DNA from: Candidatus Cloacimonadota bacterium
Lineage (GTDB): Bacteria > Cloacimonadota > Cloacimonadia > JGIOTU-2
NCBI GenBank assembly: GCA_034722995.1
Contig: JAYEOL010000052.1
Coordinates: 1-44,567, forward strand
Reading direction: 5' to 3'
Length of the DNA: 44,567 bases
Shown here piece by piece: positions 40,245 to 44,567 of the stretch. The number at the start of each line of letters is the position of its first letter. Within the stretch, counting starts at the first letter, position 1. The position numbers and the translations under genes are program-made. The notes beneath the pieces are model-generated. The model was given only the letters and a program-made list of their open reading frames with translations, was not told where the DNA came from and did no database searches.

Positions 40245-41180
40245 ATGAAAAGCATACACAAAATTAAGCATAAATTGAAAAATCTTGTTGTTACTGTTGG
40301 CACATTTGATGGGGTGCATCTTGGACATCAGAAGATTATGCAAACTCTTGTGAAAAGAGCAAAAGCAATTGATGGTATTTCAGTTGTAATAACTTATCAC
40401 CCTCATCCGTTAGAAATTCTGAACAATAAACATTTTCCATATCTGCTTACCGAAAAAATAAAAAAAGAAGAATTTCTCAAAAAGATAGGTATAGATTATG
40501 TCCTCTGGCTTGACTTTGATAATAGATTAGCAAATCTTTCACCCGAAGATTTTATTAAAGCGTATTTTGTTGATAAACTATCAGCTAAAGAAATCATTGT
40601 TGGCTATGATTGGCATTTCGGTAAGAATAGAACAGGTAATTATCACTTATTGAAAAGGTACGAAAAGGTATATGGCTATAAAACGGATATTGTAAAAGAA
40701 GTGAAAATCGGAAAGAAAATCGTGTCCAGCACTAAAATCCGGGAATATATTAGAGACGGAAAAATAGAGTCTGCTCAAAAAATGTTAGGGCGATATTATT
40801 CTATTTTAGGTAAGGTCGTTCCAGGCGATAAAATTGGCAGGCAATTAGGATTTCCAACCATAAATCTTGAACCAGTAGAGCCAAGAAAGTTGCTCCCTCA
40901 ATGTGGCGTGTATTTAACAAAAACTGAGTTCAAACAAAATAAAATGTGTGGTCTAACAAATATTGGCAAAAAACCAACTATAAAAAAGAATAATAGGAAA
41001 AAATTCATAGAAACATATATTTTTGATTTTGATAAAGAGATTTATTCCAAAAAGATTGAACTCTTTTTTATAAGAAGAATTCGGGATGAAAAAAAATTTG
41101 CAAGTAAAGAAGAACTCATAGAACAAATAAAGTTAGATGAAAGCATTGTAAGATGTATAATCCAAAATATGAAATTATAA
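40245..41180 (+). CDS. ribF: Bifunctional riboflavin kinase / FAD synthetase
   Basis: Phosphorylates riboflavin to FMN and adenylates FMN to FAD. The N-terminal nucleotidyltransferase has 'TVGTFDGVHLGHQKIM' (about 17-32), 'TYHPHPLEI' and 'VSSTKIREYI'; the C-terminal riboflavin kinase has 'GRQLGFPTINLEP', 'GLTNIGKKPT' and 'KKIELFFIRRIRDE'. The 311 residues are full length. Its ATG abuts the truB stop, and its end overlaps ispD by 28 bases. Confidence 0.96.
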   Translation: MKSIHKIKHKLKNLVVTVGTFDGVHLGHQKIMQTLVKRAKAIDGISVVITYHPHPLEILNNKHFPYLLTEKIKKEEFLKKIGIDYVLWLDFDNRLANLSPEDFIKAYFVDKLSAKEIIVGYDWHFGKNRTGNYHLLKRYEKVYGYKTDIVKEVKIGKKIVSSTKIREYIRDGKIESAQKMLGRYYSILGKVVPGDKIGRQLGFPTINLEPVEPRKLLPQCGVYLTKTEFKQNKMCGLTNIGKKPTIKKNNRKKFIETYIFDFDKEIYSKKIELFFIRRIRDEKKFASKEELIEQIKLDESIVRCIIQNMKL

Positions 41181-41875
41181 AAAATAAAGTTATAGCTATT
41201 ATAACAGCGGCAGGAAAAAGTGTGCGAATGAACTTACCAGTGAAAAAGCAGTTTATGCCACTTGCGGGTAAACCAATTATAGTCCATACAGTAGAGAAAT
41301 TTTTAAAAGCAGAAATTTTTGATAAAATAATTATCACAATCAGTTCAGAAGATAGAAAACTCGCTGAAAAAATACTCTTTTCTAAATATAATTTTCCTAA
41401 AAAGAAATTTATCATTGTTGATGGAGGCGTAACAAGGCAACAATCCGTATTTAATGCATTAAAAATGTGCCCCGAAGCAACTGATTATGTTGTAATTCAC
41501 GATGGGGTTAGACCTCTCGTAAAGGTTAAAGAAATTCAGGAAATTGTTGAACTGACTGAAGAAAAAAGAGCAATTACACTCGGCATAACAGCAAAAAATA
41601 CTATTAAGAGAATTAAGCAGAATAGAGTCATATCCACTTTAGATAGAAAACAGTTATGGGAAATTTTTACACCTCAAGCATTCTATTATGACTTAATTTA
41701 TAAAGCACATAAAAATGCAGAAAACAAAAAGCTCGAAGTAAATGATGATGCAGAATTGGTAGAAATTCTTGGTAAAGATGTTTTTGTTTTACAGGGTTTG
41801 CCAGAAAATATAAAAATTACTGACCAATTTGATTTGAAAATTGCTGAGGCGATATTACAAGGTGTAGAAAAATGA
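41153..41875 (+). CDS. ispD: 2-C-methyl-D-erythritol 4-phosphate cytidylyltransferase
   Basis: Third step of the non-mevalonate isoprenoid pathway: transfers CMP to methylerythritol phosphate. The 240-residue protein has 'AIITAAGKSVRMNLPVKKQF' (CTP-binding loop), 'GGVTRQQSVFNAL', 'YVVIHDGVRPLV' and 'EVNDDAELVEILG', all diagnostic. It overlaps ribF at its start and the glmS-like gene at its stop (ATGA), so three enzymes of unrelated pathways are translationally coupled. No ispF is fused or adjacent within the window. Confidence 0.94.
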   Translation: MYNPKYEIIKNKVIAIITAAGKSVRMNLPVKKQFMPLAGKPIIVHTVEKFLKAEIFDKIIITISSEDRKLAEKILFSKYNFPKKKFIIVDGGVTRQQSVFNALKMCPEATDYVVIHDGVRPLVKVKEIQEIVELTEEKRAITLGITAKNTIKRIKQNRVISTLDRKQLWEIFTPQAFYYDLIYKAHKNAENKKLEVNDDAELVEILGKDVFVLQGLPENIKITDQFDLKIAEAILQGVEK

Positions 41876-44567
41876 AAAGGATAAAAAATATTTTGGCAAA
41901 AATCTTACAAAAAATCCCGAATTTTCAAATCAAAATCCCGGTTACTGGACTTGGTTGTGGAGTTCTTGGCTTGGTCTTTGCCAAACAGACCATTAAAATG
42001 GGAAAGATAGCAGCACATCTTTTAAAAAGTCTTGAATATCGTGGATATGATTCTACCGGAGCTATTATTCAGAATGATAAAGGAAAGATTGTAGTCAGGA
42101 AAGATGTAGGTGCACCTTCTGAACTTGTTAAAACTTTGGGAATAGAAAAGCTATCAGGAAAAATATTCTGCGGGCAGGTTAGATGGGCAACTTTTGGTTC
42201 AGTTAACAAGGAAAATTCTCAACCTCATGAAGTAAAGTGCAAAAAGCATATCTACGGGGCTCATAATGGAAATATTACCAATACCTGCGCATTAAAACAG
42301 TTTCTTATTGATGAAGGACATGATGTTATAAGTAATAATGATGGAGAAATACTGGTTCATACTGTTGAGCAATATTTTGATATGTATATTGAGAAATTTC
42401 CAGATAAAAGACATTTAGAACCACAGATTCGCAAGGATTCTATGCGAAAGGCAATAATTGAGGCAAGCAAAAAGTTAGAAGGCTCTTATGCTGCTGTGAT
42501 AGTTGACCCTGTTACAGAAATTGTTTACGCAATCAAAGCAGGAAGCAGTTTATATGTTGGAATAGGCGAATATGAAGGTAACAGATTTATCCTTGCATCT
42601 TCTGACTTAACTGCAATTTTACATTATACAAAAGTATTAATCAAAGTATATGAAAATGAGTTTATTGAATTTTCGCACGACAGATATCAAATATATGCAT
42701 TAAAAGATATAACAATACATCAAAAGGATGGAACTTATAAACACTACAAAGAAGGTGAGAAGATAGATGTTAAACCAAAGCGTAGTAAGTTAAGAGCTGC
42801 AGATATTAAGCTCTCACCTCCATTTAAATATTTTATGGAACAAGAAATTTACGCTGAGGTAGAAAGCTGTAGGAAGCTTATTCAATTTATAAAGAATGGA
42901 AGTGAAGACAGCAAAAAAATTTGTAGCATTTTAAAAAATAGTAAGGCGTTAAATAACTATCAAACAATTTGCAAAAGTATCACCGAAACATCTAACTTTG
43001 AAAAACAGACAAAAATTTTTCAAAATTTCCTTTCTGACAAATCCTTTATAGAAATAAAAAAAGAATGTAAAAAGAAGATTCCAGAATTATTTGATAAATT
43101 TACTGACCCAGATTTTACAAAGATGGAGTTTTATTCTGATAATTCAACTGTTTTTTTAGAGATAATTGGGAATGAAATTTCTGAAGATTATCTTTTATTA
43201 GCTAAAATAATGGATGCCATTGATGAACAGCGTGAAACTTTAAATTTTCAGAAAAAAATAGAGCGTTTTCTTGAAATGATAACTAATGCCTGGGATAAAC
43301 ATTGTAATATTTACGCTGCAAGTTGTGGCACATCTTATCATGCTGCGAAAACCGCTGCCCTGTTTTTTAACGAAATCGCCGGAGTTGAGATAATACCTAT
43401 TATACCAGGTGATTTCCGCGGCCAATATTCAAAGTCATTGCGAGATAAGGACATAATCATTGGCATAAGTCAAAGTGGCGAAACAAAAGATCTAATAGAT
43501 ATTTTTAGCAATGTAGAAAAATTAGGCAAAGATATTTATAGAATTGCCATTGTAAATAATGTAAATTCCACCCTTGGACAAGAGAAATCACAACTCTGTC
43601 TGCCTATTAGATGTGGTCCCGAAATGGCAGTTCCTGCAACAAAAAGTTACATCAATCAAATTACTCTTTTATATTATTTAGCAATACGAACCGCTGAAGT
43701 TAGACTTAAACATATGAAAGCTAATTCGTATGATAAGAAGGAAATAGGGAAATTAGAGCAACAGATTACACAGCGTTTTGAGACACTTGATTATATTCCA
43801 AACATTATAAGCGAAACGATTAATACAACCCAAGCTCAGATTGAAAATGTCGCCGAACAAATCTTTCTTGAACCCAGCATACATATTTTGGCAACAAAAT
43901 TAAGCCCCGTTGCACAAGAGGGTGCTTTAAAAATCCGCGAAACAGTTTTGAATCATACAGAAGGAAGAGAAGGAGCGGAATTTAAACACGGACCAAATAC
44001 AATACTGGGAGAAAATACAGTTTTTGGAATATGGAGTATAGAATCTTTGATGAAAAAGTATAATAAAGCAATTGAATTTATCTACTCTGAAACCAAAAGC
44101 GATGATGTGATAACTGAGGAAGATATTCCAAAAGTGATAACCGCGCTTGGTGATTATGTTTTTGATAGAGTTAGACCTTTTAACTTATTACCTCATTCCT
44201 TAAAACTCTTTGAGCGAACAGTTAAAAAATTTGATTTCTTCGCTTCTCTGTATAGAAATTACCCTTTGATTTATATCACTGGACCTGAAGAGCGAGATGT
44301 TAGATTAACAATTTCGCAGATTAATACACATAAAATTCGGGGTGCCAATAGCTTTCTTGTTGCTGAAGAAAATGATGACTTACTCCAGAACATCAGTTCA
44401 ATTCCATCAGCACATCCAGACTATAAATGGGGTTATATTGAACTTCCAAAAACCGGCGATACACTTCTAACAGTTTTCTCAAGCATTGTTGTATTACAAC
44501 TTTTAGCTTTGAGAATGAGTATAAAAAAGATGAAATATCTTAATAAACTCCATGTGCCCAGACATGG
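41872..44567 (+). CDS. glmS: Divergent glutamine-fructose-6-phosphate aminotransferase (GlmS-like), 3' end outside window
   Basis: Probable enzyme for glucosamine-6-phosphate synthesis or a relative. The frame is open for 898 codons to the window edge. The glutaminase half has 'GCGVLGL' (Cys29), 'LEYRGYDSTGA', 'VRWATFGSV' and 'HNGNITN'. The isomerase half has 'FMEQEIYAEVE' (about 320), the first SIS domain 'CGTSYHAAKTAA' (about 484) and 'SQSGETKDLID' (534), then 'AVPATKS' and 'EGALKIRE' with 'EFKHGPN' (about 700). Two oddities: the presumed nucleophile Cys is residue 29 with no start codon just before it, and the chain is about 300 residues longer than usual GlmS (~600), with an extra ~150 residues before the SIS domains. 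It overlaps ispD by ATGA. Confidence 0.82.
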   Translation, partial: MKRIKNILAKILQKIPNFQIKIPVTGLGCGVLGLVFAKQTIKMGKIAAHLLKSLEYRGYDSTGAIIQNDKGKIVVRKDVGAPSELVKTLGIEKLSGKIFCGQVRWATFGSVNKENSQPHEVKCKKHIYGAHNGNITNTCALKQFLIDEGHDVISNNDGEILVHTVEQYFDMYIEKFPDKRHLEPQIRKDSMRKAIIEASKKLEGSYAAVIVDPVTEIVYAIKAGSSLYVGIGEYEGNRFILASSDLTAILHYTKVLIKVYENEFIEFSHDRYQIYALKDITIHQKDGTYKHYKEGEKIDVKPKRSKLRAADIKLSPPFKYFMEQEIYAEVESCRKLIQFIKNGSEDSKKICSILKNSKALNNYQTICKSITETSNFEKQTKIFQNFLSDKSFIEIKKECKKKIPELFDKFTDPDFTKMEFYSDNSTVFLEIIGNEISEDYLLLAKIMDAIDEQRETLNFQKKIERFLEMITNAWDKHCNIYAASCGTSYHAAKTAALFFNEIAGVEIIPIIPGDFRGQYSKSLRDKDIIIGISQSGETKDLIDIFSNVEKLGKDIYRIAIVNNVNSTLGQEKSQLCLPIRCGPEMAVPATKSYINQITLLYYLAIRTAEVRLKHMKANSYDKKEIGKLEQQITQRFETLDYIPNIISETINTTQAQIENVAEQIFLEPSIHILATKLSPVAQEGALKIRETVLNHTEGREGAEFKHGPNTILGENTVFGIWSIESLMKKYNKAIEFIYSETKSDDVITEEDIPKVITALGDYVFDRVRPFNLLPHSLKLFERTVKKFDFFASLYRNYPLIYITGPEERDVRLTISQINTHKIRGANSFLVAEENDDLLQNISSIPSAHPDYKWGYIELPKTGDTLLTVFSSIVVLQLLALRMSIKKMKYLNKLHVPRH

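Follow-up and report, generated by a model that had tools for sequence, protein, structure and literature searches.

A long GlmS subfamily in Cloacimonadota and Delongbacteria with a conserved leader, probably a propeptide, ahead of the catalytic cysteine

Introduction

Class II amidotransferases act through an N-terminal Cys nucleophile with a free alpha-amino group. In PurF proteins such as that of B. subtilis, which are class II Ntn amidotransferases, a short propeptide lies ahead of this Cys, and in GltB (glutamate synthase) a propeptide likewise precedes the nucleophile Cys. The proteasome beta subunits are also Ntn enzymes with a propeptide, and their scissile bond joins a Gly to the nucleophile. 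To our knowledge, all GlmS/GFAT enzymes described so far are Met-Cys proteins. Loss of Met1 has been documented in GFAT (PMC7948480). For the family, residues ahead of the Cys have been described as removed autocatalytically (PMC9140057, where the MEROPS C44 family is also described).

Here we analyze a GlmS-like gene at the end of a 44,567-nucleotide contig from a Cloacimonadota bacterium, the whole of which is referred to as the window. A preliminary description of the locus had proposed that the catalytic Cys lies at residue 29, and that either a propeptide is cleaved or the glutaminase is inactive.

Results

A long GlmS-like protein with the nucleophile at residue 29

The gene occupies positions 41872..44567 of the forward strand, with 898 codons inside the window. 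The reading frame (41872-44565) has no stop up to the window end and runs off the contig, and because the contig ends there the protein lacks its last 17 residues; the whole protein would comprise approximately 915 amino acids. A complete homologue at locus L007 has 918 amino acids and is 95% identical to the window protein. Using phmmer, residue 29 pairs with Cys1 of E. coli GlmS (2j6h) and is followed by LEYRGYDS, RWAT, HNG and the SIS domains, confirming the assignment of the nucleophile in a long GlmS-type protein. The Cys29 codon (TGT, 41956..41958, forward strand) is preceded by GGA CTT GGT, and the predicted cleavage site is immediately N-terminal to it. The claim that no in-frame start codon lies between the ATG and the Cys needs correction, since a TTG is present at codon 8, but this is the only one and none adjoins the Cys, so the conclusion drawn from it stands.

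Immediately upstream, and outside the enzyme, is ispD (41153..41875, forward strand), whose stop codon overlaps the ATG of the long glmS (ATGA). The isoprenoid genes ispD and ispF are often adjacent elsewhere. In Cloacimonadota the long glmS sits between them, with ispD directly upstream across the phylum and ispF found downstream at L007, L015 and L016; its neighbors in Delongbacteria differ from those in Cloacimonadota.

Domain layout and active sites

The order of domains, a glutaminase followed by two SIS domains, is that of GlmS. The glutaminase domain, a class II glutamine amidotransferase of the Ntn type, spans 41956..42822 on the forward strand. Between it and SIS domain 1 (43300..43686, forward strand; CGTSYH, SQSGET, VPATKS) lies a helical insert that is absent from canonical GlmS (42904..43299, forward strand; approximately residues 345-475). 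The insert had been put at about 150 residues ahead of the SIS domains; it is real, but its size is about 125-130 residues. The SIS2 segment with the catalytic Lys, Glu and His (GALKIRETVLNH...KHGP) covers 43897..44031 of the forward strand and is followed, according to the alignment, by an 81-residue insert in the second SIS half (44032..44259, forward strand). This internal insertion accounts for the extra length that had been taken for an extended C-terminal part: the C-terminus of the long family is an ordinary GlmS active-site tail, PKNVSKSITVD, compared with PRNLAKSVTVE in the genome's own GlmS. An AlphaFold model of the long enzyme (pLDDT 75, pTM 0.75) had E. coli GlmS 2j6h as its best Foldseek match (E 1e-28, TM (target) 0.80).

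The long form thus shares domain order, catalytic residues and C-terminal active-site tail with GlmS/GFAT (TIGR01135, EC 2.6.1.16; E. coli 2j6h), and differs from it by the leader, inserts of approximately 130 and 80 residues, and the substitutions H77F, A400P and S401A. It scores below the GlmS cut-offs (298.9 and 293.6 bits versus 381 and 418), the window form with 293.6 bits and a Met-Cys form with 288.9 both falling short of the TIGR01135 equivalog cut-off of 418.05, and the window glutaminase domain is 28% identical to the canonical GlmS of the same genome. The earlier impression of a distinct subfamily was right.

We aligned the active sites of 96 leader-bearing and 12 Met-Cys proteins (GlmS numbering). 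The glutaminase residues C1, R26, R73, W74, H97, N98, G99 and D123 and the synthase residues S303, S347, Q348, S349, T352, K485, E488 and H504 are invariant in all of them, while K603 is kept in 12 of 12 Met-Cys and 94 of 96 leader rows, with a gap in the remaining two. Judged by these residues, both active sites are intact in either form. GlmS motifs are otherwise invariant in the long family, apart from three substitutions shared by all or nearly all members: His77 to Phe, Ala400 to Pro and Ser401 to Ala. These may affect glutamine or sugar binding, and such departures from GlmS leave the sugar product uncertain.

The leader is conserved and under purifying selection

The 28-residue leader of the window protein (41872..41955, forward strand), a probable propeptide, has a basic amphipathic first half followed by FQIKIPVTGLG. 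N-termini were read at 122 loci, a few of which represent one record reached twice; 107 have a leader and 15 have Met-Cys starts. A leader is found in all Cloacimonadota homologues with a readable N-terminus and in nearly all Delongbacteria homologues. Leader length varies from 13 to 47 residues over the 107 loci, but the end follows the consensus [IVL]-P-[VI]-[FP]-G-x-G directly ahead of Cys. Gly is found at -1 in 107 of 107 leaders, Gly at -3 in 96 and Pro at -6 in 96, with alternating hydrophobic residues at -5, -7, -9 and -11. In the window this conserved motif reads P-V-T-G-L-G (41938..41955, forward strand; Pro -6, Gly -1). The shortest leader, of 13 residues (MKFIFYIPILGVG followed by C), scarcely extends beyond the motif; the Cloacimonadota locus L015 has a leader of this length. 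The distal leader is basic, with a median net charge of +4.

To this can be added the pattern of substitution. In 45 independent pairs, pN/pS was 0.30 at leader positions -6 to -1, 0.39 at -12 to -1 and 0.72 in the distal leader, compared with approximately 0.16 in the mature protein. These values indicate that the leader is translated, constrained and faster-evolving than the mature protein, as expected of a propeptide. The leader is therefore under purifying selection, and it is real, translated, conserved and phylum-wide. With AlphaFold2, whether for the full length or the glutaminase alone, it is predicted at low confidence (pLDDT approximately 28-33 near the cleavage site), and so the geometry of autoprocessing cannot be claimed.

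Given this conservation, there is practically no chance that translation starts elsewhere or that a sequencing error masks a Met-Cys start: the rare start TTG at codon 8 is set against one architecture across 107 loci whose leaders differ in length, none of them with a Met-Cys start, amino-acid selection on the leader, use of all four codons (GGT, GGC, GGA and GGG) for Gly(-1), and the ATGA overlap with ispD, and we reject this reading, including the sequencing error that the preliminary description had singled out as a threat to its claim.

Leader and Met-Cys forms alternate within the family

Across 84,980 species genomes, the scan picked up 34 loci of the long form. It is present in 95 of 125 Cloacimonadota genomes and 11 of 13 Delongbacteria genomes, but in only 8 of 199 Elusimicrobia genomes. 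The Elusimicrobia and Riflebacteria members have a Met-Cys start at exactly the equivalent Cys. Two Delongbacteria loci, L010 and L022, also have Met-Cys starts and are nested within the leader clade (SH-aLRT 96-100). Both have their own GGAG ribosome site directly 5' of ATG-TGC, and the gene order at L010 is the same as that at the leader-bearing locus L021. In these two Delongbacteria the leader appears to have been swapped for a start codon that would yield an N-terminal Cys via Met removal. In the wider tree two leader/Met-Cys changes are needed, the outgroup branch being too long to order the states in time. Leaderless relatives, which had been named as a possible argument against the claim, do therefore exist; they carry Met-Cys, and so do not refute it. 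A Cys at position 2, where Met removal would expose it, is found only in these leaderless members of the family. The swap between the two forms suggests that the natural end state is an N-terminal Cys, and on the most economical reading the enzymes with a leader would end up with one as well.

At two other loci, L038 and L019, the long glmS is broken by an apparent frameshift or stop, with one TAG in the L019 genome. These interruptions are probably assembly errors or decay.

The long form is the sole GlmS-like gene in 13 genomes

The preliminary description had suggested a check for a canonical glmS in the same genome, and one is present (Met-Cys, 616 amino acids, 854 bits). Outside Cloacimonadota, 24 of 25 genomes also carry canonical GlmS at full score. 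Within Cloacimonadota we considered the 71 good genomes (completeness of 90% or more, contamination of 5% or less): both forms occur in 44, the long form alone in 13 and the canonical form alone in 14, and every genome has at least one of the two. The hypergeometric probability of this last pattern is 0.04, uncorrected for relatedness; being weakly significant, it is supportive rather than decisive.

In the 13 long-only genomes (G019, G020, G021, G031, G036, G037, G057, G060, G062, G070, G083, G094 and G095) no additional GlmS came up, even at a threshold of E 1e-10, and the leftover matches were mostly proteins of 450-485 residues, the size of PurF. These genomes keep matches to a GlmU-like nucleotidyltransferase, a GlmM-like phosphohexomutase and MurA, and with them the UDP-GlcNAc/MurA pathway. 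Several Cloacimonadota lineages that hold only the long form seem to have lost canonical glmS. The loss is common to sister pairs (for example G036/G037 and G057/G058), which argues against random assembly gaps.

PurF of relatives has a Met-Cys start in 15 of 15 cases, indicating that the leader is specific to the long GlmS enzyme. A genome-wide habit of placing leaders on class II amidotransferases was rejected, as both canonical GlmS and PurF start Met-Cys.

Discussion

Overall, the conservation of the leader and of the catalytic residues makes it likely that these proteins form a second, long GlmS subfamily whose leader is a removable propeptide, cut between Gly(-1) and Cys and most likely autocatalytically. 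The Cloacimonadota and Delongbacteria enzyme would be made as a precursor with a leader of 13-47 residues, in which the beta-strand-like segment I-x-I-P-[VI]-[FP]-G-x-G may present the bond to Cys. Cleavage of the bond joining the invariant Gly(-1) to the catalytic Cys, which the enzyme most likely performs on itself as PurF and GltB do, would free the alpha-amino group required as a general base in class II amidotransferases. The mature enzyme would then convert glutamine and fructose-6-P to GlcN-6-P and glutamate; genomic support for this predicted activity comes from the 13 good genomes in which it is the sole GlmS-like gene. Of the two alternatives put forward in the preliminary description, the cleaved propeptide is strongly favored by the retained active-site residues and the long-only genomes. 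Cleavage itself we infer from the Met-Cys relatives; its autocatalytic nature and GlcN-6-P as the product are inferences too.

The proposed maturation resembles that of several known systems. Compared with propeptide-bearing PurF, which has another synthase domain, the leader motif of the long GlmS ends in Gly, and PurF of the window's own phylum is without a propeptide. GltB has a propeptide of similar length, but is a different enzyme. The proteasome beta subunits are not amidotransferases, and the likeness is in mechanism only.

A more speculative extension, which we regard as rather doubtful, is that the leader does more than cap the enzyme: its conserved strand and the G-x-G segment ahead of Cys would form a dedicated module for maturation or regulation, keeping this housekeeping amino-sugar enzyme off until assembly or until contact with a partner via the basic helix. 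Removal of the leader by an outside protease, in place of self-cleavage, is possible but not likely. The distal leader, basic as it is, can be dispensed with, and since a leader may be reduced to the motif alone, the motif might serve as the recognition site of a protease. However, no protease gene is a constant neighbor of the long glmS, and the known propeptide-bearing class II amidotransferases process themselves (for the family, see PMC9140057).

Retention of the leader on an inactive glutaminase, leaving an ammonia-dependent synthase or a deaminase/isomerase, was the other alternative of the preliminary description. It has in its favor that the class II nucleophile must be N-terminal, yet is internal in the translated long form, and that NagB-II-like models match the SIS half with weak scores. 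Canonical GlmS does not use free ammonia efficiently, however, and 13 near-complete genomes have the long form and no other GlmS. The catalytic, oxyanion-hole and glutamine-binding residues checked are kept in about 100 leader-bearing proteins, bar His77 to Phe, and Met-Cys relatives are nested inside the leader clade. The invariant catalytic residues and the long-only genomes make an inactive glutaminase very unlikely, and this alternative is disfavored.

Even less credible is that the leader directs lipidation or secretion, or anchors the protein in the membrane. While a basic N-terminus, hydrophobic residues and a terminal Cys recall such signals, the lipobox [LVI][ASTVI][GAS]C is matched by 0 of 107 leaders in its strict form and by 3 of 107 when relaxed, with Gly the usual residue at -3. 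There is no hydrophobic core (the longest stretch free of charged or amide residues has a median length of 9, and the median of the maximum 10-residue hydropathy is 1.6), and the substrates of the enzyme are cytosolic; this reading was rejected.

A propeptide on GlmS was not reported in the open-access literature that we searched. The long proteins are thus a real, conserved and probably propeptide-bearing GlmS subfamily that is apparently undescribed in that literature. Annotation pipelines are unable to put a name to its members and may trim their start wrongly. The natural set of leader-bearing and leaderless orthologues, with a minimal leader of 13 residues, offers a clean system for the study of self-processing in class II amidotransferases. 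If the leader does act as a maturation module, GlmS activity would be gated by proteolytic maturation. More generally, a propeptide-bearing GlmS would bring the first step of amino-sugar synthesis into the range of propeptide maturation, in a form that is widespread in its phylum and is the only GlmS in some lineages.
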